From NCBI GenBank assembly GCA_039654915.1, contig CM077597.1, positions 89,530,001 through 89,594,000 of the forward strand: a stretch of 64,000 nt of DNA. Reading direction: 5' to 3'. A program made the translations under genes and the position numbers. The notes beneath the pieces are model-generated. The model saw only the letters and a program-made list of their open reading frames with translations, did not search any database and was not told the origin of the DNA. This document shows, in pieces, positions 42,548-64,000 of the stretch; position 1 is the first letter of the stretch; each line of letters begins with the position of its first letter. This DNA comes from Aquilaria yunnanensis (lineage: Eukaryota > Streptophyta > Magnoliopsida > Malvales > Thymelaeaceae).

Positions 42548-42552
<5 letters not shown>

Positions 42553-42585
<33 letters not shown>

Positions 42586-42850: not shown

Positions 42851-42880
42851 CCCAGGAAATTCAAAAATTTCAACTTCTAG

Positions 42881-42956
42881 GTAAAATTCAAATTTAATCT
42901 TTCATCTTTTCAACTTCTTTCACTTTGGTCACTAACTTTTTCTTTTGTTCTTGCAG
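42881..42956 (+). other. Candidate short intron in the LTR leader
   Basis: A donor context CTAG|GTAAAATT at 42881 and a pyrimidine-rich acceptor TTCTTGCAG| ending at 42956 frame a 76-nt AT-rich segment just after the GC-rich leader. The 3' LTR has the same sites (63800-63875). It may be a leader intron, or the donor may splice to a site nearer ORF1. Not proven without RNA data. Confidence 0.4.
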
Positions 42957-43019
42957 AATTAATTACTAACCTTTTTAATTTTTACTTGTTTGTTTATTAT
43001 TTGTTTATTACTAACCCTT

Positions 43020-44673: not shown

Positions 44674-44767
44674 CATGGTATATTGGCTGGAAACTGTCTC
44701 GTGCCCGCTTTTGAGCTGCTTCACCTGGTGAAGAGGGTCTGGCTGAGTAACAACGCCCCGTACCATG
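44674..44767 (+). other. Structured island in the LTR
   Basis: CATGGTA (44674-44680) and TACCATG (44761-44767) can close a stem around a GC-richer ~80-nt segment. Inside it is a perfect palindromic hairpin, CTTCACC-T-GGTGAAG (44719-44733). The island sits between A/T-rich low-complexity stretches and would be in the transcribed R/U5 part. Confidence 0.45.
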
Positions 44768-44889
44768 ATCAAAATTTTTATTTTTAAACTCTTTAATTCT
44801 TTTAAATTAACTTCTTATTAAATAAAAATTAATTATTTTTTTTTTTAATTCTTTTATAAATTGAGTAATCCTTTAAAATAATAAATATC

Positions 44890-45300
44890 TTTCATTAAAC
44901 AAGAAAACAAAAAAAGTAAACAAGAAAAAAAAAGAAAGATAAGAAAAATAAAAGAAAGATAAGAAAGAAAAATAAAAGAAAGATAAGAAAGAAAAGAAAG
45001 ATAAAAAAAATAAAAGAAAAGATAAGAAAAAGAAAAGAAAGAAAGAAAAGACAAGAAAAATAAAAGAAAGATAAGAAAGAAAAATAAAAGAAAGATAAGA
45101 TAAAGAAAAGAAAGGAAAGATAAGAAAAAGAAAAGAAAGATAAAAGAAAGAAAAAAGAAAAAGAAAAGAAAGAAAGAAAAGAATAAAAAAAGAAAGAAAA
45201 GAAAAGAAATTAAAAGAAATTTAAAAAAAAGAAGTAAAAATAAGTAAAAAAGAAGAAAAAGAAAGAAAGTAAAAAAAGAAGTAAAAATATAAAGATAAAT
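44890..45300 (+). repeat. 400-bp polypurine tract
   Basis: An almost uninterrupted run of A and G, built from GAAAGATAAGAAA-like units. Frames in it on the minus strand encode only Phe/Ser/Leu/Tyr-rich low-complexity peptides and are not genes. Confidence 0.9.
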
Positions 45301-45898
45301 TTTTTTAGTTAGTATTAAAAATCATTCATAAACAAAAAGAATTACCATTTAAAAATTAATTTCATAATAATAAGAATTAAATAATTACGATAAATCAATT
45401 TCCATATCCGGATGATCCGGCAGGATCTACGGTTTGGAAAATATCAAACTTTTTAAAATAAATAAATTAAATAAATACAAAGATAAAAATCCATGTTTAC
45501 AATATGGATTAAATTATTTAAAATTTCACCAAATTCCGTGTCCAAATGACTCGGCAGAGTCCATGGTTCGGAATCAAATCTTCCGTGTCCAAATGACTCG
45601 GCAGAGTCCATGGTTCGGAAGTATAAAATTTCATACAAATTAATTAATTTAAAAATCCACATTTCGACTAATCCAGTTAAAATTTCTAATTTTGAAAATT
45701 AACTGAGAATTATTTAAAAGCAAAGCAAAACAAAATTAAAATCAACTAAGGTGCCAATTTTTGGGCGTTTTAACAAAGTTGTTTTAACGTAACCGTACTC
45801 CCGATCCCCGAACTCTCGCAGACCAATTTTAAGGTGACCAATCGACCTAGGTGAAACCGATTGGTGGCGACTCCCGAAAACCCGACGTTGCCACAGCT

Positions 45899-45917
45899 TG
45901 GCGACTCCACTGGGGAC
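45899..45917 (+). other. Primer-binding site (tRNA-Arg type)
   Basis: TGGCGACTCCACTGGGGAC starts three bases after the LTR. It is complementary, apart from one position, to the 3' end (CCA included) of a plant tRNA-Arg whose acceptor stem ends in GGAGTCG. Ogre elements are known to prime from tRNA-Arg. Confidence 0.85.
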
Positions 45918-46521
45918 TCGACGTTAGTGAGTCGAGCCTAAAGTTGATTTGTTTTTATTTACTTTGCTTTACTATTATGTGGATTTATATATTATATTTA
46001 CTTAAGTAAACATGCATAATGCATTCACAAAATGAAGCTCTATACCCGAGCTTCCTTAAATCAAACACGATTCTTTCTAAGCGGAATTGGTGTTGCTATC
46101 CTTGTGAGGCCACGGTCTCCAAGCCTTCACCGGTTTCAAAGTAGCAAAGTAGTGTATTGCCTTCTGAGACGGTTAGTCTCTGCATGGGCCCACGAAAAGC
46201 TACGACTCGAATTAATCCATTCCTTACATAAACCCTAGAGGGTAAGGAATCGGGCCGTCACTATGATTCAGTGACGGGATTCGGGAACTATCCCTTGCCT
46301 TTTTGATAAACCACCTTCTGCATGTAGAATTCTTTACTCCACCTTAGAACCAGCCATTAAGAATTTCCCATACCTCGGTTCCCATTTCCATAGGTTTTGT
46401 TTTATCTATATGTTTGTATGATCCTATGTGTTATTTTTTTTTACTAACTCTATTTTTCCTTATTTTTCCGGCATATACATTTCATCATTAAAGATAAGTA
46501 TTTGGTGAAAGAACTATTATC
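45918..46521 (+). other. Untranslated leader before ORF1
   Basis: There is no convincing gene; a 68-codon frame at 46032-46238 has no recognisable feature. Packaging signals would be expected here but cannot be pinpointed. Confidence 0.6.
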
Positions 46522-48216
46522 ATGGATATTCTCGATTATCTTCCCACGGCTGTTACTGGATCATGGAATGACACGGTAATCGAAACTCAGCCTGAAGCTA
46601 TGGAATATTCCGAAACGGCTCAAAAGCTTCACGGAGATGCTCTGACATCCCATTCTCACGTACAGCTTAAGGACCAGGTATCGATCCGGATAAATCAGAA
46701 CGACACCACGGAATTGTTGCAAGTCTGGAATAGTTGGAATTCTACTGATCGGGAAGCTTTTACGGCAAAATATGGTCACATCACTTGCCTACTAAAGGTT
46801 ACCGTTGATGCATCACTTGTCCGGGCTCTAATACAATTTTGGGATCCATTTTATCGATGCTTTTCTTTCGATAAGATGGATCTGGTTCCAACCATTGAAG
46901 AATACAACAGCCTCTTGGGTTGGTCCTCCGACTATCCAATCGAGACTTATCAACATGATAGAAGAACGGAGCCTCATCGAGCCCTAGCAAAATTATTGGA
47001 TATGCCAGCTTCCAGTCTTCAAACCAAGTTTGCAACAAAAGGATCTCGAAAATTTATCAGTTGGATCGACTTAAAACAATTAAGTCACGTTCTCCCTCAG
47101 AAAAATCAACGACGCAAGCTTTTCGCCTTGGCGATATATGGCCTGGTAGTCTTCCCAAGAATCGTCGGATTCATTGAAGGAGACATCATTACACTATTTG
47201 AGCAAATCTGCAATGCTCAAATAAATCCGACCTCAGTAATATTATGTGAAACTATCAGGGCATTAAACTTTTGTCGCCAAAGAGGGGGCAAATTCATAGG
47301 ATGTTCACATCTCCTCAACATTTGGATCAAAAGCCACCTTCCTTGTGAGAAGCAACATTTTGGAAATCGCTTTTCAAAGGACTTCATCCCAATCGAAGCC
47401 TTTTTGAAAAGTGAAACCATTCATCACGACAGCAAGGAAGCATGGGTTGATTATTTCAAGAACATCACCGAATTCCAAATTGAATGGAGAGCCCCCTGGT
47501 CTACCTCCACCCGCGTTGTCTACCGTTGCGGCAATTGCCCGTGGGTTCCTCTCTTAGGTATATGGGGAGGAACAAGTTATGCCCCAGCTCAAGTACGAAA
47601 ACAATTTGGGTCTATGCAATTTATACCCATGACGCATAATCTGAGTAAGTTGGAATTTTCACACGAAGATCCAAATTCAAATAAGCTCGCAATGGGTATT
47701 TCAGTTGCGTGGAAAAGAATTTTCATATTGAAGTCGGGGCCTATTATTTCTCCCACTGCTTATTATGAATGGAGAAATAACCGGAAGGAAGGAATAGTTC
47801 TATCTGAAGAGGTCATCAGAAAATTGGCGAAAAAAGAGTTGGAGAAAGAACTAGAGGAAGAAAAGGAGAAGAACAAGAGGATGCTCCTTGACATGCAACA
47901 GCTCGGTCACAAAACACAACTCCTCGAAGAGAAAGTTGAATACCAAAAACAAGTCATCTCCCAATTGGTTGATGAAACCGATAAAAAAGAGATGAGAGTC
48001 AGATACTGGGAAGATCAATACAGATTTTCTCAAGATCAATTGCAAACATTTTTGGTAGAAGTCAGAAAAGTTACAGAACAAGCCCAACTAATGGGCGAAG
48101 AAGCCAAGGAGTTAGAAGAACTGAGCTGTCCTACTCCATCAGTAAATGTTCAAAGAATGATGGTGTTCATATCTAAGGCCAGAAAGCAGTATTGTACTTT
48201 GGGTCGTTTCTTTTAA
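46522..48216 (+). CDS. ORF1: extra pre-gag protein (DUF7745-like) with coiled coil
   Basis: A 564-residue protein. Residues about 60-420 resemble the domain annotated DUF7745, related to the plant mobile domain and found in many plant proteins derived from retrotransposons; recognisable words are FDKMDLVPTIEEYNSLLGW, the GLVVFPRI block, and WIKSHLPCEKQHFG. Residues about 425-530 form a charged coiled coil rich in Glu/Lys (KELEKELEEEKEKNKRM), which suggests oligomerisation. An extra ORF between PBS and gag is diagnostic of Ogre elements; its function is unknown. The start at 46522 is the first ATG of the frame. It ends 188 bp before gag, in a different frame, so it needs a separate mRNA, splicing or reinitiation. 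The frame is intact. Confidence 0.85.
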   Translation: MDILDYLPTAVTGSWNDTVIETQPEAMEYSETAQKLHGDALTSHSHVQLKDQVSIRINQNDTTELLQVWNSWNSTDREAFTAKYGHITCLLKVTVDASLVRALIQFWDPFYRCFSFDKMDLVPTIEEYNSLLGWSSDYPIETYQHDRRTEPHRALAKLLDMPASSLQTKFATKGSRKFISWIDLKQLSHVLPQKNQRRKLFALAIYGLVVFPRIVGFIEGDIITLFEQICNAQINPTSVILCETIRALNFCRQRGGKFIGCSHLLNIWIKSHLPCEKQHFGNRFSKDFIPIEAFLKSETIHHDSKEAWVDYFKNITEFQIEWRAPWSTSTRVVYRCGNCPWVPLLGIWGGTSYAPAQVRKQFGSMQFIPMTHNLSKLEFSHEDPNSNKLAMGISVAWKRIFILKSGPIISPTAYYEWRNNRKEGIVLSEEVIRKLAKKELEKELEEEKEKNKRMLLDMQQLGHKTQLLEEKVEYQKQVISQLVDETDKKEMRVRYWEDQYRFSQDQLQTFLVEVRKVTEQAQLMGEEAKELEELSCPTPSVNVQRMMVFISKARKQYCTLGRFF

Positions 48217-48404: not shown

Positions 48405-51400
48405 ATGGCAGAACAAGCCGAAGGACGTCTCATGGAGATGGAGTCCAAGATTGAAAGTATGTCAGAACAGATGAGACAATTGATGGAATTAATCAAAGGG
48501 AAAGCAACTCAAGTCCCCATCAAAGAAGTACAAGATCCCACTTATCCCCCGGGATTCACCCCGCAACGAGTCTCAGTCCAAGAAAACCTGTTTCAAGAAT
48601 CAGGACCGTCTGCTAGTGTTCACCTGAAACAAGACACTGTACAGGAAGAGAAGAAGACATTACCAAAAGAAGAAGCAGAATCTCAAAAACTCGAAACAAT
48701 AGAAAAGCGACTGCGAGCCATTGAAGGAGGCACTATATTCGGATCTCTCTCGGTGGATGACCTCTGCTTAGTGCCAGACGTCGTAATCCCTTCAGATTTT
48801 AAGGTGCCAGATTTCATGAAATACGATGGAACGAGTGATCCCATCACTCACATCACATTGTTCCTAAGGAGACTACAACCACTCACAAAAGATGAAAAGG
48901 TGTGGATCGCACTTTTTCAGGAAAGTCTCACAAAATCAGCATTACAGTGGTATCTAAGCCAAGGTCCAAGGAACATAAAAACTTGGAATGACCTTGCTCA
49001 GGCCTTCATCGGCAACTATAAACACGTTATGGACTTGGCTCCGGATCGCCAAACTCTCCAAAACATGGAGAAGAAAAAGCCAGAAACTTTCAAGGAATAT
49101 GCGCAGCGGTGGAGGGACTTAGCTGCACAGGTTCAGCCACCCATGACAGAAAGAGAAATGGTCACTTTGTTTGTCCAGACACTGAAATACCCATATTATG
49201 ACAAACTTATTGGCAATGCGGCAACTAACTTCTCCGACGTAGTAATGTCTGGAGAAAGGATCGAGCATGGTATCAGGACTGGGAAGATTACTGAATCCTT
49301 TAGCGATCCTATGAAAAGAGGAGGACCTTCCAGAAGAAAAGATGAAGAAATACAACAAATAGGAAGAGGAAGAGGGATTCCCTTCGTGGGCACTGTGGCC
49401 ACCGGACCTCGCCTATCCTATTCTGTCAATAAGCCCAATTATTATCCTACCAATAGGCCCAATGATTATCCTCCCAATAGGCCCAATGATTGTCTTCCCA
49501 ATAGACCCAACAATTATCCTCCCAACAGACCTAATCAGTTACGGCCACCTGTTCCAACTCCTCCAGTACTTGCACCAAGACCAAGAGAAATCTTCGCACC
49601 AATTCCCATGACTTACACTGAGCTGTATCCAAAACTCATCGAAAGTCAACTTATTCGCCCAATCCCTACAAGGCCATTGGAACCCCCGTATCCAAGGTGG
49701 TATGACCCTAACATAAATTGCCCATATCATGATGGTACCGTGGGCCACGGACTGGAAAATTGCATAGCATTGAAGCGTATAGTCCAACAATTAATTGAGT
49801 CAAAGTGGTTGGACTTTTCCGATGAACCAAACGTCACTCATAATCCATTGCCTCCTCATCAAGCCAAACCAGTCAATATGATGGAAGAATACTGGCCGAT
49901 GAAGAAAACAGTCAATGATATCATAACCCCTCTTAAGCATGTATATTCATGCCTTGTGAAAGAAGGGATTATCATAGGAAAGTCTTCTGGAAATAAAGAA
50001 GTCGAGGATGAGGAGTGGTGCAACTTTCATAACAGTAAAAGTCATTCTATCCAAGAATGCCCAGAATTCCGTAAAAGTCTACAAAGTCTTATGGACTCCT
50101 CCCAAATCATCGTTTTTATGTCAGATAAAGAGGATGACGTGAATGTGATAATTAAAGAACAAGAAGTCAATATCATGCCAAGACCACTAGTCATTCCAAT
50201 ATCAAAATCTGCTCTCAAGCCTTTAAGAATTCAAGTTCCAAAGCCATTCCCGTACAAATCAGACAAAACTGTTCCATGGAACTATGGCTATACTTCTAAC
50301 ATCACATCAACTCCGTTAGAAGTTGGGGGCATGACTAGAAGCGGTCGGTGTTATTCTCCCGAGCAAATGAACAAGCTCCAACAAGAGAAGAATGTTACGG
50401 ATCCAGCAAATGGACCTATTAACACATCTAAAGAGCAAGAGATGCCTCGAGCAGTAACAGATGAACAAGCTACTGAGTTTCTCAAACTCATAAAGCAAAG
50501 TGAATACAGTATCGTGGAGCAGTTGAACCGTCTGCCAGCAAAGATCTCCATACTTTCATTACTCTTAAGTTCTGATGCCCATCGAGAAGCTCTTCTCAAA
50601 GTCCTGAATAAGGCTTATGTTGAACAAGATATCTCCGTGAACAACTTTGACCACCTTGTCAACAACATCACGGCACAAAATCTCATCACATTCACTGACG
50701 ATGAGATACCAGCAGAAGGAAGGGGTCACTCTAAGGCTCTGCATATTTCGATTAAATACAAAGATCGGATTATGGCCAGAGTTCTTATCGACAATGGGTC
50801 AGCTCTAAATGTAATGCCACTCGAAACCTTACATAAGATTGGTTTAGACCCATCATACCTCAACAACAGTCATATTGTTGTTCGAGCATTTGACGGAACG
50901 AAGAGAGATGTTGTTGGAGAAATAGAGCTACCAATAGGGATTGGTCCCTGTCTTTTCCACATCACATTCCAAGTCATGGATATTTGTCCATCTTATACCT
51001 GCCTGCTGGGAAGACCATGGATCCATATGGCCGGAGCAATTCCTTCTTCATTACACCAGAAAATGAAATTCATTATTGAAGGAAAGATAATCACGGTCTT
51101 CGCTGAAGAAGACATCCTGCTATCAAGACCTGCGGATGCTCAATATGTCGAAGTCAATGAAAATATACCTGATTGCTCCTTCAGGTCTTTTGAGATTGTC
51201 AATGCTGCTTATGTCAGCGAATATGGAGAAGAACCCATTCCTAGCATCTCTAAAACAAGTCGCATGGTTGCCAAACTCATGATAAAAGGAGGATACTCAC
51301 TGGGGTTAGGACTGGGACAAGATTTACAAGGAATCACAGAACCATTGAAAATCACCACAAATGAAGGGAAATACGGCCTAGGCTTCACACCGACAAGACA

Positions 51401-51716
51401 TGATAAAATGAAGGCAATAGCTGAAAAGAGAGAAAAGAGGATTGCACGATTAACAGGGCATCCTCTCCAGGAAAGAAATCTGGATATCCCTGAAATCACC
51501 GAAACGTTCGTGAGTGGTGGTCTCATTCCAAAAAATGACAATGAAGGCAAGCTGACTATCAACATCAACAAGTCTTTTGAAAGTCTTTCTATTCAGGCAA
51601 TCATCAGCGATTCACCTGAAGAGGAGGAGCTTGTTCAACCTTGTGGCCCACGGGATGTGCTGAACAATTGGGAGGCGATAGAACTGCCTGTTATAATCGA
51701 AAGCTCTCCAAAGTAA
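48405..51716 (+). CDS. gag-pro: Gag-protease polyprotein with G-patch
   Basis: 1,103 residues. A short coiled coil (about 1-32) precedes the retrotransposon gag domain (about 135-290, with SALQWYLSQGP). Two unusual zinc knuckles of form C-X2-H-X5-H-X4-C (from C439) and C-X2-H-X4-H-X4-C (from C539) replace the usual CCHC. A run of PNRPN-type repeats lies near 345-375. The aspartic protease has its active site at D796 as LIDNGS, with the late motif CLLGRPWIH. A G-patch (about 945-995, GGYSLGLGLGQDLQG) follows, as in other Tat elements, and probably binds nucleic acid. The frame ends in TAA at 51714-51716, but a splice donor overlaps the stop (GT at 51713-51714), which would join it to pol. All domains look intact. 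Confidence 0.92.
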   Translation: MAEQAEGRLMEMESKIESMSEQMRQLMELIKGKATQVPIKEVQDPTYPPGFTPQRVSVQENLFQESGPSASVHLKQDTVQEEKKTLPKEEAESQKLETIEKRLRAIEGGTIFGSLSVDDLCLVPDVVIPSDFKVPDFMKYDGTSDPITHITLFLRRLQPLTKDEKVWIALFQESLTKSALQWYLSQGPRNIKTWNDLAQAFIGNYKHVMDLAPDRQTLQNMEKKKPETFKEYAQRWRDLAAQVQPPMTEREMVTLFVQTLKYPYYDKLIGNAATNFSDVVMSGERIEHGIRTGKITESFSDPMKRGGPSRRKDEEIQQIGRGRGIPFVGTVATGPRLSYSVNKPNYYPTNRPNDYPPNRPNDCLPNRPNNYPPNRPNQLRPPVPTPPVLAPRPREIFAPIPMTYTELYPKLIESQLIRPIPTRPLEPPYPRWYDPNINCPYHDGTVGHGLENCIALKRIVQQLIESKWLDFSDEPNVTHNPLPPHQAKPVNMMEEYWPMKKTVNDIITPLKHVYSCLVKEGIIIGKSSGNKEVEDEEWCNFHNSKSHSIQECPEFRKSLQSLMDSSQIIVFMSDKEDDVNVIIKEQEVNIMPRPLVIPISKSALKPLRIQVPKPFPYKSDKTVPWNYGYTSNITSTPLEVGGMTRSGRCYSPEQMNKLQQEKNVTDPANGPINTSKEQEMPRAVTDEQATEFLKLIKQSEYSIVEQLNRLPAKISILSLLLSSDAHREALLKVLNKAYVEQDISVNNFDHLVNNITAQNLITFTDDEIPAEGRGHSKALHISIKYKDRIMARVLIDNGSALNVMPLETLHKIGLDPSYLNNSHIVVRAFDGTKRDVVGEIELPIGIGPCLFHITFQVMDICPSYTCLLGRPWIHMAGAIPSSLHQKMKFIIEGKIITVFAEEDILLSRPADAQYVEVNENIPDCSFRSFEIVNAAYVSEYGEEPIPSISKTSRMVAKLMIKGGYSLGLGLGQDLQGITEPLKITTNEGKYGLGFTPTRHDKMKAIAEKREKRIARLTGHPLQERNLDIPEITETFVSGGLIPKNDNEGKLTININKSFESLSIQAIISDSPEEEELVQPCGPRDVLNNWEAIELPVIIESSPK

Positions 51717-51909: not shown

Positions 51910-54900
51910 ACCCAAAACTCTCTTTGATGACAATGAAAGAATGAACTTTGATAATCCTGTAAACACTACCGACTCGGATGACGAAGATCTTCAAGTATCT
52001 CCTGAGCTATTAAAAATGATTGAGCGAGATGAAAAAGAAAGAGCAACAAGTCAAGAACCAACTGAGGTATTCAACCTGGGAGACAGTCAGGATGTAAAAG
52101 AAGTCAAGATTGGCACTTTATTCCCTCCTGAAGAAAAAGAAGAATTAGTCCATTTATTGAAAGAATATGTGGATGTGTTTGCTTGGTCATACCAAGATAT
52201 GCCTGGCTTAAGCTCAGACATAGTACTACACAAAATACCCTTGAAACCTGGGGCGAAGCCTGTCAGACAAAAGTTACGAAGATTAAAGCCGGATCTAATC
52301 TTAAGAGTGAAAGATGAGATTCGAAAGCTGTGGGATGCAGGATTCCTTGGGGTCGCTGAATATACAGAATGGGTGGTTAACATTGTTCCAGTCGAAAAGA
52401 AAGAAAGCGGGAAACTAAGAGTTTGTCAGGACTACCGGCCATTGAACGAAGCCAGTCCTAAAGATAACTTCCCACTTCCTCACATTGATACGCTGGTGGA
52501 TAATACCGCAGGAAACTCCTATTTTTCCTTCATGGATGGCTTCTCTGGATACAATCAAATCAAACTTGATCCAGATGATATGATAAAAACTGCCTTTATA
52601 ACCCTTTGGGGTACCTTCTACTACAAGGTGATGCCTTTTGGGTTAAAGAATGCTGGTGCTACATATCAAAGAGCCATGGTTGCATTATTCCATGACATGA
52701 TGCATAAAGAAATTGAAGTATATGTAGACGACATGATCGCCAAAACTTTCACTGCTAAGGGGCATCTAAAAGTGCTAAGAAAACTATTCGATAGACTTCG
52801 CAAATATCAACTGAAGTTGAATCCTGCCAAATGTATTTTTGGAGCCTCTTCAGGAAAGTTATTGGGTTTCATGGTCAGCAAGGATGGGATTCGAGTTGAC
52901 CCGAGTAAAGTCAAAGCAATACAAGAAATGCAACCCCCGAAGACTCCAAAACAAGTAAGAAGTTTCCTGGGCAGAATCAACTTCATAGCAAGGTTCATTT
53001 CACAATTGACATCCAAGTGTGAACCTCTTTTCAAATCACTGAAGAAGAACAATCCGATCGAGTGGAATAACGAATGCCAAGAAGCATTCGAGAAAATCAA
53101 GCAATATCTATCAAATCCACCAGTCTTGGTACCACCCCGATCTGGAGAATCGTTGATTCTATATTTATCCATACAGGATTCTTCATTAGGATCCGTATTG
53201 GGTCAACGTGATGAGACAGGCAAGAAAGAGCACGCAATTTACTATTTGAGCAAGAAGCTTACCACATATGAAGCGAAATACTCAATAGTAGAAAAGTCCT
53301 GTTGTGCCCTTGCATGGGTAGCACACCGACTACGACACTACATGCTCAACAACACCACATTGCTAATCTCCAAGACTGATCCCATTAAGTACATTTTTGA
53401 GAAACCAGCTTTATCAGGCAGGATCGCAAAATGGCAAATGCTGTTGTCTGAATACGACATACAGTATGTCACCCAAAAGGCTGTAAAAGGGAGTGTGATT
53501 GCTGAATATCTGGCTGATAGAGCATTGGATGATTATGAGCCAATGAAAATGGAGTTTCCTGATGGAGATATAATGACAATAGAACAAGAAGTCTCTAAAG
53601 ATGATGAAACATGGAAAATGGCATTCGATGGAGCATCTAATGCTTTGGGACAAGGGATTGGAGCCATACTCATCTCTCCAAGTGGAGAGCAATTCCCTCT
53701 TACAGCAAAAATTACATTTCCTTGTACCAACAATATAGTAGAGTATGAGGCATGTGCTATGGGACTCCAAATGGCACTGGAATTGAAAGTGCGAGATCTC
53801 CGAGTTTATGGGGATTCCGCATTAGTCATATATCAAATCAACGGAGAATGGGAGACAAGGGATTCAAAATTGATCCCTTACCAAAAGCTCATACTAGACT
53901 TGGCTCGAAAATTCAACAGTATAAGCTTCCATCATCTTCCAAGGGAAGATAATCAAATACCGGATGCTTTAGCTACTTTGGCTGCTATGTACAAGATCAG
54001 TGACCCCGAGCATACTCCTGTGTTCGAGATGAGAATAATAGATTCTCCAGCTTATTGCATGAGCATCGAAGAAGAATTGGATGGAAAGCCTTGGTATCAC
54101 GATATCAAGAAATACCTCCAAGAAAGAGTATATCCACCAGAAGTATCAGAAAATGACAAGAAATTTCTACGAAGATTGTCAATGGGTTTTTTTTTAAACC
54201 TAGACATACTTTACAAGAAAACCCCAGACTCGATGCTACTTCGCTGTGTAGATACTCATGAAGCACGAAAGATCATGGAAGAAGTTCATTCTGGAATATG
54301 TGGAGCACACACTAGTGGTCATACTATGGCAAGACAAATAATGAGGGCTGGTTACTATTGGCTCACATTGGAAAGTGATTGCGTCAATCACGTAAGAAAA
54401 TGTCACAAATGCCAAATATATGCCAACAAGATCCAAGCTCCACCTGTTCCTCTTAATGTAACAGCAATACCTTGGCCTTTTGCCATGTGGGGAATCGATG
54501 TTATTGGAGCGATTACCCCTAAAGCTTCCAATGGTCACAAATTCATCCTAGTTGCAATTGACTACTTTACTAAATGGGTAGAAGCTGTGTCTTATGCAAG
54601 CGTAACTCAAAAGGTGGTATGCCGGTTCATTAAGAAAGAAATCATTTGTCGCTATGGACCGCCAGAGTGTATCATCTCAGACAATGCCACGAACCTGAAT
54701 AATGCAATGATGCAGACTTTGTGCCGGCAATTCAAAATCAAGCATCTCAATTCAGCACCTTATCGACCGATGATGAATGGTGCAGTAGAAGCGGCCAATA
54801 AAAATATCAAGAGAATTGTTGAAAAGATGATCGTCACTTACAAGGACTGGCATGAGATGTTACCTTTTGCACTACATGCTTATAGAACTTCTACCCGTAC

Positions 54901-55339
54901 TTCTACTGGAGCAACACCTTTTTCTCTGGTATACGGTATGGAGGCTGTATTGCCCATCGAAGTTGAAATTCCTTCATTAAGGGTACTAATGGATACTCAA
55001 TTAGGAGAAGCAGAATGGGTCAAAGCTAGATACGAGCAATTAAATCTAATTGATGAAAGAAGAATGATAGCCCTCTGCCATGGGCAACTTTATCAAAGAA
55101 GGATGATTCGTGCTTACAACAAAAAGGTTCGCCCACGACAATTTCACGAAGGTGACATAGTGCTCAAGAAAATTTTACCCATGCAACATGATTCAAGAGG
55201 AAAATGGACACCAAATTATGACGGGCCATATGTCGTGAAGAAAGCATTTTCAGGAGGGGCACTAATTCTGACAGAAATGGATGGACGAGAATTACCGAAG
55301 CCAGTAAATTCGGATGCAGTAAAGAAATACTTTGCATAA
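51910..55339 (+). CDS. pol: Pol: RT, RNase H, archaeal-type RNase H, integrase
   Basis: The exon continues from the intron; the first internal ATG is 51941, and numbering here is from it (1,132 residues). Reverse transcriptase occupies about 85-275 with the catalytic YVDD at 261-264. The first RNase H-like/tether region (about 395-520) has LYLSIQDSSLGSVL where active enzymes have an acidic residue, so it is probably inactive. A second, archaeal-type RNase H (about 555-690) keeps its acids: D563 (FDGAS), E in EYEAC, D in GDSAL, and D in IPDALA. Integrase follows with an HHCC finger (about 770-820), DD35E catalytic residues D853, D914 and E950 with 35 residues between the last two, and a GPY/F-like end. 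There is no chromodomain. The second RNase H is a Tat-lineage mark. No disabling mutation was seen. Confidence 0.93.
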
Positions 55340-56636
55340 TGAAGAAATTTTCGAACAGAATGGGAGAAGTGGATACAGGGTTACCAAAGTTTATTTGATC
55401 AAAGTTGTCAAAGAGAGCTTTCTTCCCTTACACTTTCATTATCTATCTGTACCCAAGATTTTCATATTCTTTTACCCATAAATAAAAGCCAATTCTCTTT
55501 AACTTACCTTAGATTCTCACGTTCAAAATGCTAAAGTCGCTTCTATCCAGTTCTTTTCCTTCAAATCTCACATTCCTACTAGCTTTAAGTGTGCAATAAA
55601 TTGTGACTTTTGAAGGAAGAATAGTAATAATTAAAACTTAGAAAAAAACAAAGACCGTAGATTACTTTGATAAGCTTTGTGAATTAAAACAGGTAAGATT
55701 GAGGTCCTGCTTTGCGAGCAGCACAGAACATAGGCTAACAAAGAAGAAGGAGTAACAAATCTTTGGGAGATAGCCTTGGTGGTAGCCTGAATGATCATTT
55801 CAGAAGTCTTAACATGTCTATGTCAGCAGGAAAGAATCATGCTCACGAATATTTCAACAGGGACAATTATCCAGAGAAGCATAAAATATGAGGCGGGCAT
55901 TAAAGAAAATTGAGGTCAAAATTCAAAAATAAGGCAAGGAAAGAGGATTTTTGAACAGAGTTGGGCTTTTGAGACAATGGACAACAGCTGGAAAGCATAA
56001 AGAGATTCAATAATAGTCCGAGAAGGAAATCACAAAGAAGATCCAGTAAAGTAAAACAAAGACATGAAGAGCTAGATTAAAAAAAAAAAAAAAAAAACAT
56101 CAGTTACACATGCCTTGCATTCATGCATTTCACATCATGCATGCATGGCTTTTACATAACAGGGATCAAATGAAAAGCATGTCCGCAGCATGATTGCAGC
56201 AGTATAAGCTGAGATCTTAATGACATCAGCTCTTACTAATTGGACGCATAGCTAATACGCTGGACCCAGCCCCATCAGGAATCCAAGGATAAAGCATACA
56301 ATATCGTCAAAAGCCTGGCAATTGAGGCTACACCTAAAAGAACAGAATTGATGCCAGCTTAGCAGCATCCAGGATGAGTGATAGCTATCGTCAAAGATAA
56401 GGCAGACATCAAGAAATATTGTCGTTGAAAATTCGTCAAAAGCGGACAATGGATTCAATAATCAAGGACTGAATCGACGTCAGCTGGATGGAATATCTAT
56501 CACATCAAAATAAAGTAGGATTCACTTTTCCGGTTAAGCGGCGGATACGGTACTCCGTGACTCTCAAGTCGGTTCTCTCAGTTGCCCATAATAACTTATC
56601 ATTTCCTCCCTCCTTTCTTTTACTTTCTCCTAGAAA
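55340..56636 (+). other. Spacer between pol and the cargo genes
   Basis: No supported coding frame over 1.3 kb. It contains an A homopolymer (about 56079-56097), CATGCATGCAT near 56137-56147 (a similar CATGCATGCAT word is near 48289, between ORF1 and gag), and ACGTCA near 56473. From about 56525 it resembles the spacers before the later cysteine-rich genes (TTTTCCGGTTAAGCGGCGGA here, TTTCCGGTTAAGTAGCGGA at 58142), but the TATA box is not recognisable. Confidence 0.6.
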
Positions 56637-57185
56637 ATGGATCCTACTTTTTCTGCCTTGCGAAAATATTTTCCTTCTCTCCCAATGAACATCCTCAAAA
56701 AGATCTACCAAGTTCGCTGTGAACGATTAAGAGCTCTGATGCATAAAGGAATCCCTGAAGATGTGCGGTGGTTAATTGAAGCTAAGGTTCGTCTGGCAGG
56801 TGAAATCCCAGAGGCATTTGTGTCTCACATGCCTGGTGTAGGCAAAAGCTCTTATGCCAAAAAACGAAGAGCGAGGAGACTAGGCGTTTGTCATAAATGC
56901 GGACGCTGGACCTGTAATACTAAATGTCGTTCTTTAGGGATGATCTCTGATAATCGAGAAGATAAAATACGATTCATTAAGAATGGCCTGAGTAAGGACT
57001 CATTGGATGATCTCCAATTGACTCTTGAGACGCATTCTTGTGGATCCGTGCAACGTGAACTTCTCGATTTATGGAGCATTTTTCATGAAGAACGAGAACG
57101 ATACAGTCCCGGGAATCTGACATTAAACGACCCTATTTGTCAGCTTGTAAGAAAACTGGATGGGAAGCAAATCCTCGACTCATAG
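56637..57185 (+). CDS. Cysteine-rich basic protein 1, virus-NABP-like
   Basis: 182 residues. A helical N-terminal half (residues 1-65, with LRKYFPS and an ILKKIYQVRCER helix) leads to GKSSYA, a basic run K75-R81 that looks like a nuclear or nucleolar signal and RNA-binding patch, and a compact zinc-type motif C85-X2-C88-X4-C93-X3-C97. Then comes an RFIKNGL block. This order (GxSxYA, Arg/Lys run, LGxCxxC) closely matches the 3'-proximal cysteine-rich nucleic-acid-binding proteins of carla- and allexiviruses (Pfam Viral_NABP/Carla_C4), which act as silencing suppressors or transcription factors. The resemblance is by motif, not by a search. It is the first of four tandem copies, on the same strand as pol, and has no obvious own TATA box. 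The frame is intact. Confidence 0.75.
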   Translation: MDPTFSALRKYFPSLPMNILKKIYQVRCERLRALMHKGIPEDVRWLIEAKVRLAGEIPEAFVSHMPGVGKSSYAKKRRARRLGVCHKCGRWTCNTKCRSLGMISDNREDKIRFIKNGLSKDSLDDLQLTLETHSCGSVQRELLDLWSIFHEERERYSPGNLTLNDPICQLVRKLDGKQILDS

Positions 57186-57344
57186 AAGCTATTAATCCCG
57201 TTACTGGACGTAAAACCAGTGGAAGATGTGAGCCACAGTCACAATCACTGTACATATAATTTATCATATTTAAAATTTTCCATTTTTCTTTTAATAATGT
57301 ATTTGCTCCCGTAAGTGTAATCGACACGTTATCCATTTCATCGC

Positions 57345-57352
57345 TATAAATG
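57345..57352 (+). promoter_or_regulatory. TATA box of cysteine-rich gene 2
   Basis: CGCTATAAATG, with TATAAA 82 bp before the ATG. It lies in a ~245-bp spacer that also holds TGTACATATAA and AACACGTTATCC-like words conserved in the next two spacers. Confidence 0.65.
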
Positions 57353-57431
57353 CATGTTCTTCCAGTCGGTTATCTAAGTTTCCTTCAATAACTGATTCAT
57401 TTCCCTCTTCTCTCAAATTCTTCTCTCATCA

Positions 57432-57887
57432 ATGGATTCTACTCTTTCTGCACTGCGAAAATACTTTCCTTCCTTTCCAATAAAAGTCCTTAAAAAGATC
57501 TACCTTGCTAGATGTGAAAGAATCAGAGTTTTTACACGCAAAGGCATTCCCGATAATGTGCAGTGGATAATTGAAGCTAAGGTCCGTCTGGCGGGTGAAG
57601 TTCCAGATGCATTTATGCCCCGCATGCCCGGTTTAGGTAAAAGCCGTTATGCCAAAAGGCGAAGAGCAAAGAGACTAGGCGTGTGTTATAAATGTGGGCG
57701 ATGGAATTGTATTACTAAATGTCGCTCTTTAGGATACATCTCCATAAATCGTGAAGATAAAAGAAAATTCATTAAGAATGGCCTGCGTAAGGAATCTCTG
57801 GAAGATATCCGAGAGACTCTTGAAACGCATTCTTGTGGAAAAGTGCAAGGTGAAATTATCCGTTTATGGAGGACTTACCATAAATAA
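57432..57887 (+). CDS. Cysteine-rich basic protein 2, truncated by a stop
   Basis: A tandem paralogue of the copy at 56637 with the same layout: helix, GKSRYA, basic run, C85-X2-C88-X4-C93-X3-C97, KFIKNGL. The cysteines fall at exactly the same residue numbers as in the other copies. A TAA at 57885-57887 ends it at 151 residues, where the sister copies continue to 182. The downstream 30 codons stay open in the same frame to the usual stop at 57978-57980, so a single nonsense change explains the truncation. The putative zinc motif and basic run are kept, so the short protein might still act. Alternatively it is an early pseudogene. Confidence 0.7.
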   Translation: MDSTLSALRKYFPSFPIKVLKKIYLARCERIRVFTRKGIPDNVQWIIEAKVRLAGEVPDAFMPRMPGLGKSRYAKRRRAKRLGVCYKCGRWNCITKCRSLGYISINREDKRKFIKNGLRKESLEDIRETLETHSCGKVQGEIIRLWRTYHK

Positions 57888-58123
57888 CGAAACCGTTACA
57901 GTCTTGGGAATGTGACTTTAAACGACCCTGTTTGCCAGATTGTAAGAAAACTGGATGGGAAGCAAATCCCCGACTTATAGATGGCATTGAAGCCATTACT
58001 GGACATAAATCAGGGGAAGATGAGAGCCACGGTCATGATTCCTGTACATATAAGCTGTCATTTGTCTTTTCTTTTAATATACTTGTTCCTGTAAGCGTAA
58101 TTAACACGTTATCCTTTCATCGC

Positions 58124-58131
58124 TATAAATG
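58124..58131 (+). promoter_or_regulatory. TATA box of cysteine-rich gene 3
   Basis: CGCTATAAATG as in the spacer before gene 2, about 106 bp before the ATG, again after TGTACATATAAGCTGTC and TTAACACGTTATCC words. Confidence 0.65.
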
Positions 58132-58235
58132 CGTGTTCTTCTTTCCGGTTAAGTAGCGGATGCAATACTCTCTGACTCTCAGTTTCCTACAATAACTGAT
58201 TTCTTCATCTCTTCTCTCAAATTCTTCTTTTATCA

Positions 58236-58784
58236 ATGGATTCTACTCTTTCCGCCATGCGAAAATACTTTCCTTCCATCCCAATAAATGTTCTTAAAAT
58301 GATTTACCAAGCTAGATGTGAAAGGATTAGAGTCTTTATGCACAAAGGCATTCCTGACAATGTGCGGTGGCTAATTGAAGCTAAGATTCGTTCAGCTGGT
58401 GAAGTTCCAGAATCGTTCTTTCCCCGTATGCCCGGCTTTGGTAAAAGCGCTTATGCCAAAAAGCGAAGAGCAAAGAGGCTTGGTGTCTGTCATAAATGTG
58501 GACGATGGAATTGTAATACTAAATGTCGCTTTTTAGGATACATCTCCAGAAATCATGAAGATAAAAGAAAATTCATCAAGAATGGCCTGCGAAAGGAATC
58601 TTTGGATGATATCCTATTAACTTTTGAAACACATTCTTGTGAAATAGTGCAATGGGAAATTATGGATTTATGGTGGACTTTCCGTAAAGAACAGGATCGT
58701 TACAGTCTTGGAAATCTAACTTTTAATGACCCTGTTTGCCAGTTTGTGAGAAAACTGGATGGGAAGCAAATCCCCGACTTATAG
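58236..58784 (+). CDS. Cysteine-rich basic protein 3, virus-NABP-like
   Basis: 182 residues, full length. It is closest to copy 4 in its first half and to copy 2 around the zinc motif. The features are GKSAYA, basic KKRRAKR, C85-X2-C88-X4-C93-X3-C97 (CHKCGRWNCNTKC), KFIKNGL, and a C-terminal block with NDPVCQFVRKLDGKQ. The start is the ATG at 58236 in the context ATCAATGG, shared with copies 2 and 4. Family resemblance and caveats are as for copy 1. The gene plus its upstream spacer repeats the ~0.8-kb unit, so promoter and gene were duplicated together. Confidence 0.75.
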   Translation: MDSTLSAMRKYFPSIPINVLKMIYQARCERIRVFMHKGIPDNVRWLIEAKIRSAGEVPESFFPRMPGFGKSAYAKKRRAKRLGVCHKCGRWNCNTKCRFLGYISRNHEDKRKFIKNGLRKESLDDILLTFETHSCEIVQWEIMDLWWTFRKEQDRYSLGNLTFNDPVCQFVRKLDGKQIPDL

Positions 58785-58934
58785 AAGGCATTGAAGCCGT
58801 TACTAGACATAAATCAGTGGAAGATGAGAGCCACAGTCATGATTGCTGTACATATAAGCTGTCATTTGTCTTTTCTTTTGACAATAATGTACTTGCTTCT
58901 GTAAGTGTAATAAACGCATTATCCCTTTCGTCAC

Positions 58935-58942
58935 TATAAATA
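58935..58942 (+). promoter_or_regulatory. TATA box of cysteine-rich gene 4
   Basis: TCACTATAAATATG, about 60 bp before the ATG at 59001. The spacer shows the same order of words as the preceding ones (TGTACATATAAGCTGTC, then a TATCC word, then TATA). Confidence 0.65.
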
Positions 58943-59000
58943 TGTGTTAGTTATGTTCGTTTCCTACAATCACTAATTTCTTTCTTTGCCTCCTTCATCA

Positions 59001-59549
59001 ATGGAGTCTTCTCTTTCCGCCCTACGAAAGTATTTTCCTTCCTTCCCAATAAATGTTCTTAAAAAGATTTATCAAGCTAGATGTGAACGATTCAGAGTAT
59101 TTATGCACAAAGGCATTCCTGATAATGTGCGGTGGCTAATTGAAGCTAAGGTTCGTTCAGCTGGTGAAGTTCCCGAAGCGTTCTTTCCCCGTATGCCCGG
59201 CTTTGGTAAAAGCGCTTATGCCAAAAAAAGAAGAGCAAAGAGGCTAGGCGTTTGTCATAATTGTGGATGGTGGATTTGCGGCAATAAATGTCGTGCTCCA
59301 GGAGTGATCACCAGAAATCGTAATGATAGAATAAGATTCATTAAGAATGGCTTGCGTAAGGAATCTCTAGAAGATATTCGAGAGGTTCTTGAAGCGCATT
59401 CTTGTGGAATAGTGCAATTTGAGGTTGTTGGATTATGGATAATTTTCCAAAAAGAACGAGATCGTTACAGTCTTGGGAATCTGACCCTAAACGACCCTGT
59501 TTGCCAGTTTGTGAGAAAGCTAGATGAGATGCAAATCACCGATTCATAG
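59001..59549 (+). CDS. Cysteine-rich basic protein 4, virus-NABP-like
   Basis: 182 residues from the ATG at 59001; the frame is open five codons further up but only to a TTG, and alignment with the other copies fixes the start at this ATG. Cysteines are at 85, 88, 93 and 97 (CHNCGWWICGNKC), so the motif is kept although the residues between differ most of the four (Trp for Arg, Gly inserted-type change). The basic run, RFIKNGL and the C-terminal NDPVCQFVRKLD block are present. The second half is closest to copy 1 (both have RFIKNGL and an ISDNRED/ITRNRND-type step). It directly precedes the repeat array upstream of LOG. Confidence 0.75.
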   Translation: MESSLSALRKYFPSFPINVLKKIYQARCERFRVFMHKGIPDNVRWLIEAKVRSAGEVPEAFFPRMPGFGKSAYAKKRRAKRLGVCHNCGWWICGNKCRAPGVITRNRNDRIRFIKNGLRKESLEDIREVLEAHSCGIVQFEVVGLWIIFQKERDRYSLGNLTLNDPVCQFVRKLDEMQITDS

Positions 59550-59589: not shown

Positions 59590-60060
59590 ACGAGGATCAA
59601 AGTCACGATTACTGTACGTGCTAGCTGTCGCTTTTGAAATTTTCCTCCCCTTTTGGTAATAATGTATCCACTCCTGACGTGAACCAAAGTCACGATTACT
59701 GTACGTACTAGCTGTCGCTTTTGAAATTTTCCTCCCCTTTCAACGATAATGTATCCACTCCTGACATGAGCCATAGTTACGATTACTGTACGTGCTAGCT
59801 GTCGCTTTTGAAATTTTCCTCCCCTTTGGCAATAATGTACCCACTCCTGACACGGACTACTGTATATAGCTGCCACTTTTGAAATTTTCCTTCCCTTCCA
59901 ACAATCACATACCTACTCCTGACGTAAGCTACAGTAGTGACTACTGTACATGCTAGCGGCTATTTTGAAAATTTTCCTCCTCTTTTAACGATAGTGTACC
60001 CATACCTGACCAGAGTCATACTCGTGACTACTGTGTATAGCTGGCAATAATGTATCCACT
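59590..60060 (+). repeat. Six ~85-bp repeats upstream of LOG (promoter-like)
   Basis: Each unit runs through a GATTACTGTACGTGCTAGCT-type step, a TTTTGAAATTTTCCTCCCCT step and ATAATGTAYCCACTCCTGAC. Units start near 59597, 59681, 59766, 59850, 59923 and 60010; the fourth is shortened and the sixth merges into the LOG core promoter. The repeats descend from the spacer that separates the cysteine-rich genes. Unit junctions carry TGACGT (59675), TGACAT, TGACAC, TGACGTAAG (59930-59938) and TGACCA. TGACG is the core of as-1-type sites bound by plant TGA bZIP factors, so the array may be an enhancer. Confidence 0.8.
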
Positions 60061-60096: not shown

Positions 60097-60106
60097 TATA
60101 AATATA
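60097..60106 (+). promoter_or_regulatory. TATA box of the LOG gene
   Basis: TATAAATATA in the context CTCTATAAATATATCC, 40 bp before the likely start codon at 60137. A start of transcription ~30 bp downstream would leave a leader of only about 10 nt. This context argues against the upstream ATG at 60050 being used. Confidence 0.65.
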
Positions 60107-61312: not shown

Positions 61313-61673
61313 AATCAATTTTCATCATCGGGGTTTTAAGGATGGAACCTTTGCCTCGAAAACAATCAATTTTCATCATCGGGGTTTTAAGGATGGAACC
61401 TTTGCCTCGAAAACAATCAATTTTCATCATCGGGGTTTTAAGGATGGAACCTTTGCCTCGAAAACAATCAATTTTCATCATCGGGGTTTTAAGGATGAAA
61501 CCTTTGCCTCGAAAACAATCAATTTTCATCATCGGGGTTTTAAGGATGGAACCTTTGCCTCGAAAACAATCAATTTTCATCATCGGGGTTTTAAGGAAGG
61601 AACCTTTGCCTCGAAAACAACCAATTTTCATCATCGGGGTTTTAAGGATGGAACCTTTGCCTCGAGATCAATC
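61313..61673 (+). repeat. Tandem array, 7 x 51 bp
   Basis: Units begin near 61321, 61372, 61423, 61474, 61525, 61576 and 61627 with TTCATCATCGGGGTTTTAAG, followed by GGAACCTTTGCCTCGAAAAC. Copies are nearly identical. Because 51 is a multiple of three, a frame stays open through the array, but it has no independent sign of being a gene. Confidence 0.95.
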
Positions 61674-62687
61674 ATTCAGTCCATCTTACAACGATAGAAC
61701 CTTTCCTATCGTTAGAGGTTCTAAGGACCTTTCCTTAAACCTCAAACAAACAATCAATCATTCAGTCCATCTTACAACGATAGAACCTTTCCTATCGTTA
61801 GAGGTTCTAAGGACCTTTCCTTAAACCTCAAACAAACAATCAATCATTCAGTCCATCTTACAACGATAGAACCTTTCCTATCGTTAGAGGTTCTAAGGAT
61901 CTTTCCTTAACCTCAAACAAACAATCAATCATTCAGTCCATCTTACAACGATAGAACCTTTCCTATCGTTAGAGGTTCTAAGGACCTTTCCTTAACCTCA
62001 AACAAACAACCAATCATTCAGTCCATCTTACAACGATAGAACCTTTCCTATCGTTAGAGGTTCTAAGGATCTTTCCTTAACCTCAAACAAACAATCAATC
62101 ATTCAGTCCATCTTACAACGATAGAACCTTTCCTATCGTTAGGGGTTCTAAGGACCTTTCCTTAAACCTCAAACAAACAATCAATCATTCAGTCCATCTT
62201 ACAACGATAGAACCTTTCCTATCGTTAGAGGTTCTAAGGACCTTTCCTTAAACCTCAAACAAACAATCAATCATTCAGTCCATCTTACAACGATAGAACC
62301 TTTCCTATCGTTAGAGGTTCTAAGGATCTTTCCTTAACCTCAAACAAACAATCAATCATTCAGTCCATCTTACAACGATAGAACCTTTCCTATCGTTAGG
62401 GGTTCTAAGGACCTTTCCTTAAACCTCAAACCAACAATCAATCATTCAGTCCATCTTATAACGATAGAACATTTCCTATCGTTAGAGGTTCTAAGGACCT
62501 TTCCTTAAACCTCAAACAAACAATCAATCATTCAGTCCATCTTACAACGATAGAACCTTTCCTATCGTTAGAGGTTCTAAGGACCTTCCCTTAAACCTCA
62601 AACAAACAATCAATCATTCAGTCCATCTTACAACGATAGAACCTTTCCTATCGTTAGAGGTTCTAAGGACCTTTCCTTAAACCTCAG
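61674..62687 (+). repeat. Tandem array, 12 x 85/86 bp, two hairpins per unit
   Basis: Units start (ATTCAGTCC) at 61674, 61760, 61846, 61931, 62016, 62101, 62187, 62273, 62358, 62444, 62530 and 62616. Each unit contains AACGATAG-AACCTTTC-CTATCGTT (perfect 8-bp stem) followed by GGTTCTAAGGA-CCT-TTCCTTAAACC (10-bp stem with one bulge). The 85-bp variants lack one A. Tandem repeats in the 3' untranslated region are known for Tat-lineage elements and can seed satellite DNA. Confidence 0.95.
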
Positions 62688-62778: not shown

Positions 62779-62791
62779 AAAGGGGGGCAGC
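62779..62791 (+). other. Polypurine tract
   Basis: AAAGGGGGGCAG lies immediately before the 3' LTR start at 62792, as required for plus-strand priming. The closest purine run is AAAGGGGGG. Confidence 0.85.
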
Positions 62792-64000
62792 TGTTGACAC
62801 CCAATTTCGTCCGGCCATTAAAATAATTTTAAAAAAAATTAAATAAAAAAAATTAAATAAAAAAATGTATTATTATTATTATTGTTATTATTATTACTAA
62901 TTTTTTTTTTTTAATTAGTTTAAAATATATATATTTTTTGTTTTGTTTTGTGAAGATTTGATATATGTGTGTATATGTGTATGTTTGAAAGAAAAAAAGA
63001 AAACTCCATAAAAATGACAAAATTTAAAAGTTTGAGGTAAAAATGACAAAATTAAGAAGTTTCAGGCAAAATTGACAAATTCTGAAAGTTCCAGGAGCAT
63101 TTGGCAGTTTGTCACATAAAATTTTGAGCCTGCCGACGTTTTTGGCTCAAATTGACAGAAAACGACAAAATTGTCAAAATCAGAAGCTTCAGGAACTTAT
63201 CCAGAGGCTGAGAGACGTAAAGGACTAAAATTGTCATTTTACCAATTTAAGAGATAAGTTTGAAATTTTTTATTAATTTATCCATCAATAGTTCAGCTAA
63301 ACTTCCTCTATAAATAGCCCCCCAAATTTTGTGCTGAACACAGAAAAAAATAGCAAAAAAACTTAGAGCTCCGTTTTAAAAAAAGAGAAAATTACAGCCC
63401 TTAGCCCCAGCCCTCTTCCCTTCTTCCCCAGAAAGCCAATTTTTTTTTTTCACTGCTGTTCCCTCTCTCTCTCTCTCTCTCTCTCTCTCCGCCGTGCCCC
63501 TCGCTGCCCGCCGCCGCCGCCCTACGCCGTTCGCCGCCGCCGTCCCTCTCCCTCGCGCCGCCGCCGTCCTTCCACCTTGCCGTCCCGCCGCCCATCTCGC
63601 CGTGACGCCGCCGTCCTCCTCCGCCGTTCGTTTCCTCTCCCCAGCCGCCAAGCCGCCCCGTCGCCTCGCCGCCCCGCCGCTCACACCGCCCCGCCGTAGC
63701 GCCGCCGTCGCCCCTGCCCCGTGCCGCCACGCCAGTAGCCCCACCCCTCTGCCGCGTCGCGCCTACGTATCCAGGAAATTAAAAAATTTCAACTTCTAGG
63801 TAAAATTCAAATTTAATCTTTCATCTTTTCAACTTCTTTCACTTTGGTCACTAACTTTTTCTTTTGTTCTTGCAGAATTAATTACTAACCTTTTTAATTT
63901 TTACTTGTTTGTTTATTATTTGTTTATTACTAACCCTTTCTTTATTGTTGTTTTTAACAACTAACAACTAACAACTAACTTACTAACTTTTATTATTGAT
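62792..64000 (+). repeat. 3' LTR (partial, cut by window end)
   Basis: It begins TGTTGACACCCAATTTCGTC like the 5' LTR and follows it base by base to the window end, about 1.2 kb. By eye I count three substitutions (near 63765-63785) and a few indels: one T in a homopolymer, a shorter CT run, an extra CCG-type segment near 63515-63540, and a shorter C-rich stretch near 63745. The TATA box (63309-63316) and the intron-like segment (63800-63875) are the same. Confidence 0.95.

Follow-up and report, generated by a model that had tools for sequence, protein, structure and literature searches.

Tandem genes resembling viral nucleic-acid-binding proteins in a young Ogre/Tat-type Ty3 retrotransposon of Aquilaria yunnanensis

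Results

Four tandem genes between pol and the 3' long terminal repeat

We analyzed a 64,000-nt stretch of the Aquilaria yunnanensis genome (GenBank assembly GCA_039654915.1, contig CM077597.1, positions 89,530,001 to 89,594,000 of the forward strand; hereafter the window), which carries a complete, young and high-copy Ty3 retrotransposon of the Ogre/Tat type, 24.9 kb in length. Between pol and the 3' long terminal repeat (LTR) this element holds five accessory genes in the sense orientation, where four tandem genes encode proteins that resemble viral nucleic-acid-binding proteins (NABPs) and the fifth encodes a LOG-type enzyme (Table 1). We hold with high confidence that genes of the NABP superfamily are an integral part of this recently active element. 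A first-pass annotation made from the sequence had proposed four such genes within an LTR retrotransposon, and both parts of that description are borne out: the four open reading frames (ORFs) are real, and they lie inside a complete Ty3 element. The starts of successive copies are 795, 804 and 765 bp apart, a period of ~800 bp, and copies 1, 2 and 4 share 71-77% protein identity with copy 3. The start of copy 4 was placed at the ATG that aligns with the other copies, five codons downstream of a listed TTG at 58986.

Each protein was compared with two related Pfam models, Viral_NABP (PF05515, cut-off 23 bits) and Carla_C4 (PF01623, cut-off 20.9 bits). All eight comparisons exceed the curated cut-offs, with scores of 26.1-32.2 bits for Viral_NABP and 21.9-29.1 bits for Carla_C4, and no further Pfam family appears at E <= 1 for the four window proteins. 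As controls, copies 1 and 2 were each shuffled four times and reversed once, and none of the resulting sequences matches either model at E <= 1 (0/10). A wider comparison took in 25 copies, drawn from the window and from other loci; at E <= 0.1, Viral_NABP is matched by 24 of them and Carla_C4 by all 25, where the best E is 7.5e-11 and member 1 of the set scores 40.3 and 27.2 bits. Competing families in this wider set reach 0.061 at best (four members), and zinc-finger families reach 0.081 and 0.092 (one member each). The profile search suggested alongside the first-pass annotation returns the viral families, with no competing zinc-finger family near significance.

The same signal extends across the genome. 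With PF05515 as the query, 150 of 7054 candidates were scored and all 150 lie above the cut-off, at up to 40.8 bits; the top scores exceed those of the window copies themselves, and six of the 150 carry an internal stop. Fourteen control genomes gave no match to PF05515 above the cut-off and one weaker match. Inspection of the alignments places the matched core at profile positions 113-204 of 227, corresponding to protein residues 34-122 at most, such that 33 N-terminal and ~60 C-terminal residues fall outside it. Profile searches of the PDB gave no match (best E 0.41 and 0.12), NCBIfam gave none for copies 1 and 2, which were the copies searched, and a pattern search of viral contigs produced 58 and 84 pattern matches with no confirmed relative among them.

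The sequence features described for the four genes at the outset are also present: all four copies contain a GxSxYA motif, a KKRR/KRRR run and cysteines at positions 85, 88, 93 and 97. In copy 3 the KKRR run occupies residues 75-78 and the first finger cysteine is C85, a spacing equal to that of the cysteine-rich protein (CRP) of the carlavirus CiCV1, where the corresponding positions are 47-50 and C57 (PMC10141686). These features are widely shared by the 70 sampled genes, with a CX2CX4CX3C finger in 67/70, a GxSxYA-like box in 67/70 and the basic run at the exact spacing in 65/70.

Copies across the genome and selection on the accessory genes

A search of the 842-Mb genome with the copy 3 protein returned 8586 first-look candidates, of which 150 were scored; each of the 150 has an uninterrupted full-length frame and is 99-100% identical to the query. 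Thirty loci were then fetched around copy 3, a choice by which copy 3 itself is open by selection. Upstream of copy 3, 28 of these 30 loci have an open 182-aa neighbor, the exceptions being L001 (the window) and L020; downstream, 29 of them do, the exception being L028. Judged by identity, 27 of the upstream neighbors belong to the copy-2 type, and 25 of these are open over 182 codons; the two that are not open are the window's own copy, which ends after residue 151, and that of L020, at 89 aa. In L003, L014 and L015, copy 2 is missing and the upstream neighbor is of the copy-1 type. Complete NABP copies number two to four per locus among the loci examined, plus part of a fifth in L011, where positions 2266-3546 hold this partial copy together with a chimeric copy-4/copy-3 gene. 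The length of the array seems to change by unequal recombination.

Diverged elements carry the array as well. Ten diverged loci (L032-L041), drawn from the highest-ranking PF05515 matches, each contain at least two NABP genes. In the longer stretches L042 and L043, NABP types 1, 2 and 4 stand in the same order, followed by LOG, and L043 also includes the end of pol. We rejected the idea that the array is a separate unit of viral origin nested within the element, since the same array order precedes LOG in both stretches and follows pol in L043.

To place the copies relative to one another, a midpoint-rooted FastTree gene tree was built from 70 genes of 22 loci and the window. The tree resolves clades for type 1 (13 genes), type 2 (22 genes) and types 3 and 4 together (35 genes, of which 12 are type 3 and 23 type 4). 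Types 1, 2 and 4 each span young and diverged subfamilies. All type 3 genes in the sample belong to the young subfamily, but type 3 branches before type 4 diversifies, and the idea of copy 3 as a late addition is not borne out by the tree. That is to say, at least three genes, and perhaps four, predate the split of the sampled subfamilies. The absence of type 3 from diverged elements may reflect loss, non-sampling, or arrival in the young elements by recombination.

Codon comparisons indicate that the NABP-like genes are under purifying selection. Omega is 0.19-0.40 for six NABP paralog pairs and 0.19-0.24 for four copy-1/copy-4 ortholog pairs, and bootstraps reach omega >= 1 in 0/1000 cases for each of these 10 pairs. 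LOG gives values of 0.22 and 0.33, the higher one against L042. Among comparisons made without bootstraps, L042 gives 0.54 with copy 2 and, for its type-4 gene, 0.36 with copy 3, and values between two old elements are 0.48-0.76 with few changes. Higher omega with old elements is as expected where one or both copies are decaying.

Alternative interpretations

Several observations weigh against reading the array as viral-type genes that are maintained for the benefit of the element. The finger spacing is CX2CX4CX3C, versus CX2CX12CX4C in carlaviruses such as CiCV1 (PMC10141686) and CX2CX9CX4C in potato virus H (PMC3689765). AlphaFold models are poor, with a mean pLDDT of 46.4 from 11 sequences and 50.6 from 25 sequences, and when the latter model was compared with BFVD by Foldseek, nothing matched at E <= 0.001. 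Reading of the 70 sampled NABP genes meets a stop in 23, frameshifts included. The omega of pol, at 0.08 over 264 codons, is below that of the NABP genes; the LOG-L042 comparison reaches omega >= 1 in 22/1000 bootstraps; and 0.36-0.72 is obtained, without bootstraps, in four additional NABP comparisons that involve one or two old copies. The 2.8 kb upstream of copy 1 in L042 yielded no pol, and similarity in this direction stops at window position 55881. Finally, the role in dividing cells that is discussed below for LOG is a conjecture.

The spacing bears directly on the likeness to viral cysteine-rich proteins that had been proposed in the first-pass annotation. At the level of profile homology the likeness stands, whereas the carlaviral finger spacing is not shared. 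The setting differs too: a carlavirus CRP gene is 3'-proximal in an RNA virus and neighbors the coat protein gene, and the genes described here lie between pol and the 3' LTR. Finger spacing varies among viruses as well, yet CX2CX4CX3C is outside the viral spacings compared here, and the proteins are best filed, on their sequences, as a divergent branch of the Viral_NABP/Carla_C4 superfamily rather than as carlavirus CRPs.

One alternative is convergence around a basic run and four cysteines, in which the proteins would be zinc fingers peculiar to the element that serve it structurally, for instance as a chaperone of genomic RNA or an aid to gag. The match that spans only ~90 of 182 residues, the finger spacing, the lack of a confident fold and the lack of a confirmed relative in viral contigs would all fit such an origin. 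It is harder to reconcile with two related Pfam models matched above curated cut-offs and with a far lower best E in the wider set than the 0.081 that other zinc-finger families attain, with composition controls that match neither model, or with a basic run placed exactly as in CiCV1. The BFVD search points the same way in its first eight matches, none of which is significant or taken as structural evidence. Six of them (ranks 2, 3, 4, 5, 6 and 8) come from alpha- or betaflexiviruses, judging by the virus names, and five of the six are named NABP, NBP or silencing suppressor; ranks 1 and 7 are unnamed. The TM values of the six flexivirus matches are 0.14-0.25 for this low-confidence model, and we read the NABP-rich list as leakage of sequence signal, not as a shared fold. 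Taken together, we consider convergence improbable.

A further alternative holds that the array is passive cargo, captured by chance, multiplied by unequal recombination and without function. Variation in copy number, as seen in the fifth and chimeric copies of L011 and the absence of copy 2 from three loci, speaks for cargo, as do the stops among the sampled genes and the omega values of up to 0.72 with or between old copies. Cargo would not, however, explain omega below 1 in 10/10 bootstrapped NABP pairs, the retention of types 1, 2 and 4 through subfamily divergence, the open neighbors of copy 3 in 28/30 (upstream) and 29/30 (downstream) loci, or the conservation of TATA-like and splice-site-like motifs. 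We regard passive carriage as very unlikely, and maintained members of the NABP superfamily remain our preferred reading of the array.

Organization of the element

Table 1. Features of the element and its accessory genes, in window coordinates.
Feature	Position	Strand	Evidence or remark
5' LTR, 4015 bp, TG...CA	41881..45895	+	mafft/blastn against 3' LTR; CGTAT flank
Putative primer binding site region, directly after 5' LTR	45896..45918	+	position, sequence reading
ORF1, DUF7745/plant mobile domain-like, 5' of gag	46522..48216	+	PF24924 E 3.1e-56
gag-protease ORF with G-patch	48405..51716	+	Retrotrans_gag E 3.1e-11, G-patch E 1.6e-7
pol ORF: reverse transcriptase, RNase H, additional RNase H, integrase	51941..55339	+	Pfam
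Predicted 5' splice site AG/GTAAG	55691..55697	+	sole match of eight donor strings in internal region; conserved in L043
Predicted 3' splice site, polypyrimidine tract and TAG, 3 nt before copy 1 ATG	56611..56633	+	
NABP-like copy 1, 182 aa	56637..57185	+	Viral_NABP E 1.3e-6, Carla_C4 E 9.8e-7
TATAAA, 87 nt before copy 2 ATG	57345..57350	+	also before copy-2 type in L042, L043
NABP-like copy 2, 151 aa, premature stop in window element	57432..57887	+	Viral_NABP E 1.4e-7, Carla_C4 E 2.2e-5
TATAAA, 112 nt before copy 3 ATG	58124..58129	+	
NABP-like copy 3, 182 aa	58236..58784	+	Viral_NABP E 9.9e-6, Carla_C4 E 1.7e-5
TATAAA, 66 nt before copy 4 ATG	58935..58940	+	also before copy-4 type in L042, L043
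NABP-like copy 4, 182 aa	59001..59549	+	Viral_NABP E 4.8e-6, Carla_C4 E 1.7e-4
Noncoding tandem repeat, 87-bp unit x 2.9	59598..59852	+	like NABP 3' flank/intergenic regions
TATAAA, 40 nt before LOG ATG	60097..60102	+	also in L042, L043
LOG-type cytokinin riboside 5'-monophosphate phosphoribohydrolase, intronless, 209 aa	60137..60766	+	Lysine_decarbox E 1.6e-30
Tandem repeat, 51-bp unit x 7.1	61313..61674	+	
Tandem repeat, 86-bp unit x 11.9	61667..62686	+	
Polypurine-tract-like stretch AAAGGGGGGCAGC	62779..62791	+	direct reading
3' LTR	62792..64000, on past window end to 66793 (window numbering)	+	same contig

The element is flanked on both sides by the 5-bp target duplication CGTAT, and its LTRs are bounded by TG...CA. 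Alignment of the LTR pair with mafft reveals 6 substitutions in 3977 aligned columns, and blastn reports 98.5% identity with 10 mismatches in 4034 columns. With plant substitution rates of 7e-9 to 1.3e-8 per site per year, the LTR divergence dates the insertion to about 0.06-0.11 million years ago.

The pol product contains RVT_1, RT_RNaseH (403-505), RVT_3 (570-680) and rve (846-943), an order that places an additional RNase H (aRH) between RNase H and integrase. The gag-protease and pol frames are separate ORFs with a gap of 224 bp, and the aspartyl protease match in the former is weak (Pfam E 0.076). Compared with the plant mobile domain (PMD) model PF10536, ORF1 reaches E 2.8e-8 and 33.7 bits, slightly below the cut-off of 34.9; its far stronger match to DUF7745 suggests an overlap of the two families. 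A survey of plant Ty3 lineages describes an aRH between RNase H and integrase in Ogre and Retand alike; for Ogre it also reports that 57% of the elements have a PMD and that pol forms its own ORF, set apart by 274 bp on average (PMC6317226). The Ogre-type label given here rests on domain order, the PMD-type ORF and the ORF gap, and should be taken as a sequence-based assignment.

The two repeat arrays at 61313-62686, just before the 3' LTR, are possible binding sites or satellite precursors. Elsewhere in the window, a 278-aa ORF on the minus strand (28791-29627) has a weak match to a hAT-like transposase RNase-H domain, at E 8.3e-6 and slightly below the cut-off.

A probably captured LOG gene

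The fifth accessory gene is closest to two Arabidopsis proteins of the LOG family in the PDB. Its best solved relative is 2a33 (At2g37210; E 1.6e-51), and the motif PGGxGTxxE, by which LOG proteins are known, is kept in the alignment. The Pfam match in Table 1 was obtained with the protein taken from 60140. The gene is 95.7% identical in two diverged elements. Plant LOG genes generally have introns, and the lack of introns in the present gene suggests capture through an mRNA. The LOG-carrying elements described earlier (Steinbauerova 2011) are reportedly Athila-like.

Predicted expression signals

A TATAAA motif precedes four of the five accessory genes, compared with a mean of 0.28 in mononucleotide shuffles, where four were reached in 2/5000 shuffles. 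Copy 1 is the exception, with no TATAAA within 150 nt upstream in the window element, L042 or L043. It is preceded by an acceptor-like tract in which 19/20 positions are pyrimidines, ranking first of 373 YAG sites in the internal region, and such a tract also lies before copy 1 in L042 and L043. Together, the donor and acceptor predict a 941-nt leader intron (55693-56633) upstream of copy 1.

Discussion

The arrangement of these signals suggests how the accessory genes could work. Copies 2-4 would be transcribed separately from their own TATA-like boxes, and copy 1 would be expressed by way of the leader intron. Each would yield a small nucleic-acid-binding protein of the zinc-finger type that acts in the nucleus and that may counter RNA silencing by protecting or activating transcripts or DNA of the element itself. 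Viral NABPs suppress RNA silencing and set symptoms (PMC12172455, PMC12115993), and VANC, an anti-silencing protein encoded by VANDAL, binds the element's own noncoding regions, which are often tandemly repeated (PMC5735166, PMC10398659). Given that viral NABPs blunt silencing and that VANC does likewise for VANDAL, an anti-silencing role is the most economical one for the element. By a narrow balance, we favor the view that the array consists of stable accessory genes whose products bind nucleic acid in the nucleus and support the element against silencing by its host. LOG enzymes release active cytokinin, and the LOG gene of the element may raise cytokinin levels; on the conjecture already mentioned, this may favor cells that divide and have little silencing, from which new insertions are passed on.

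The same proteins could instead act outward. NABP relatives may serve as transcription factors on host genes, such that together with LOG they would form a growth cassette and not an anti-silencing one. The p12 protein of chrysanthemum virus B offers a precedent, being described as both a weak silencing suppressor and a transcription factor that induces hyperplasia (PMC12172455). LOG adjoins the array in the window, L042 and L043, and omega below 1 for the NABP pairs and for LOG would be compatible with a joint role in growth. On the other side, there is no known target promoter, the finger spacing is unlike that of carlavirus proteins, and altered growth would tax the host besides helping the element. 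A growth cassette is, in our judgment, unlikely, and defense against silencing is the role that we carry forward.

As to origin, we offer a tentative scenario, to which we give somewhat less credence than to the anti-silencing role itself. The element would have taken an NABP gene from an RNA virus, or would hold it in common with one, multiplied it until at least three paralogs were each expressed and selected on their own, and linked these to a captured LOG, yielding an anti-silencing and proliferation cassette that accompanied the high-copy expansion. Betaflexivirus replicase-like sequence in cucumber illustrates that such viruses can reach plant chromosomes (PMC3136472). Viral-type NABP genes in this setting would directly link plus-strand RNA viruses and LTR retrotransposons genetically and would provide a candidate for a suppressor of silencing that a retrotransposon encodes in a plant. 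The open question of how such elements escape silencing becomes testable with these compact genes. With NABP genes and a hormone-activating gene side by side, the element might also manipulate the growth state of the host cell. Should transfer have run from element to virus, it would bear on the origin of flexivirus suppressors.

The Viral_NABP/Carla_C4 family is otherwise known from alpha- and betaflexiviruses. We found no report of this family in a retrotransposon in a literature search that covered mainly open-access papers. PMC11963269, which describes tandem arrays in about half of Retand clusters, does not contain the word NABP. In a survey of 121 genomes (PMC9289625), the terms 'carlavirus' and 'nucleic acid binding' are absent from the main text; its full domain chart sits in a supplement.

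The carlavirus, allexivirus and mandarivirus NABPs share with the array the profile match, a basic run six residues before the first cysteine (as in CiCV1), a four-cysteine finger and a small size. The element proteins differ from them in lying in tandem within an LTR retrotransposon, in the CX2CX4CX3C spacing, in their own TATA-like boxes and in their extra termini. Ogre/Tat-lineage Ty3 elements have in common with the present element the aRH, a PMD-type ORF before gag, gag-protease and pol in two ORFs, and 4-kb LTRs, but the five sense accessory genes between pol and the 3' LTR set it apart. VANDAL is a MULE-type transposon, so that the transposon type differs from that of the present element, and the likeness to VANC is one of analogy; it lies in the proposed role of a transposon-encoded nucleic-acid-binding protein against silencing and in the noncoding tandem repeats of the element, although such arrays also occur in about half of Retand clusters (PMC11963269). 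With respect to size, the 182-aa element proteins compare with ~96 aa in potato virus H, judged by coordinates (PMC3689765), and 223 aa in mandariviruses (PMC12172455). A LOG (YgdH) domain is reported for Gypsy-type elements of Citrus and, with a looser filter, Populus (PMC9289625). These are likewise Ty3 elements with a LOG-type gene inside, and the present LOG differs in belonging to a Tat/Ogre-type element and standing beside NABP genes. The AlkB-carrying Ty3 of Phalaenopsis, from the same source, is a giant Ty3 that acquired an RNA-acting domain of a type that betaflexiviruses carry as well; its AlkB resembles plant RNA demethylases, whereas the NABP-type profile matched here is built on RNA-virus proteins.

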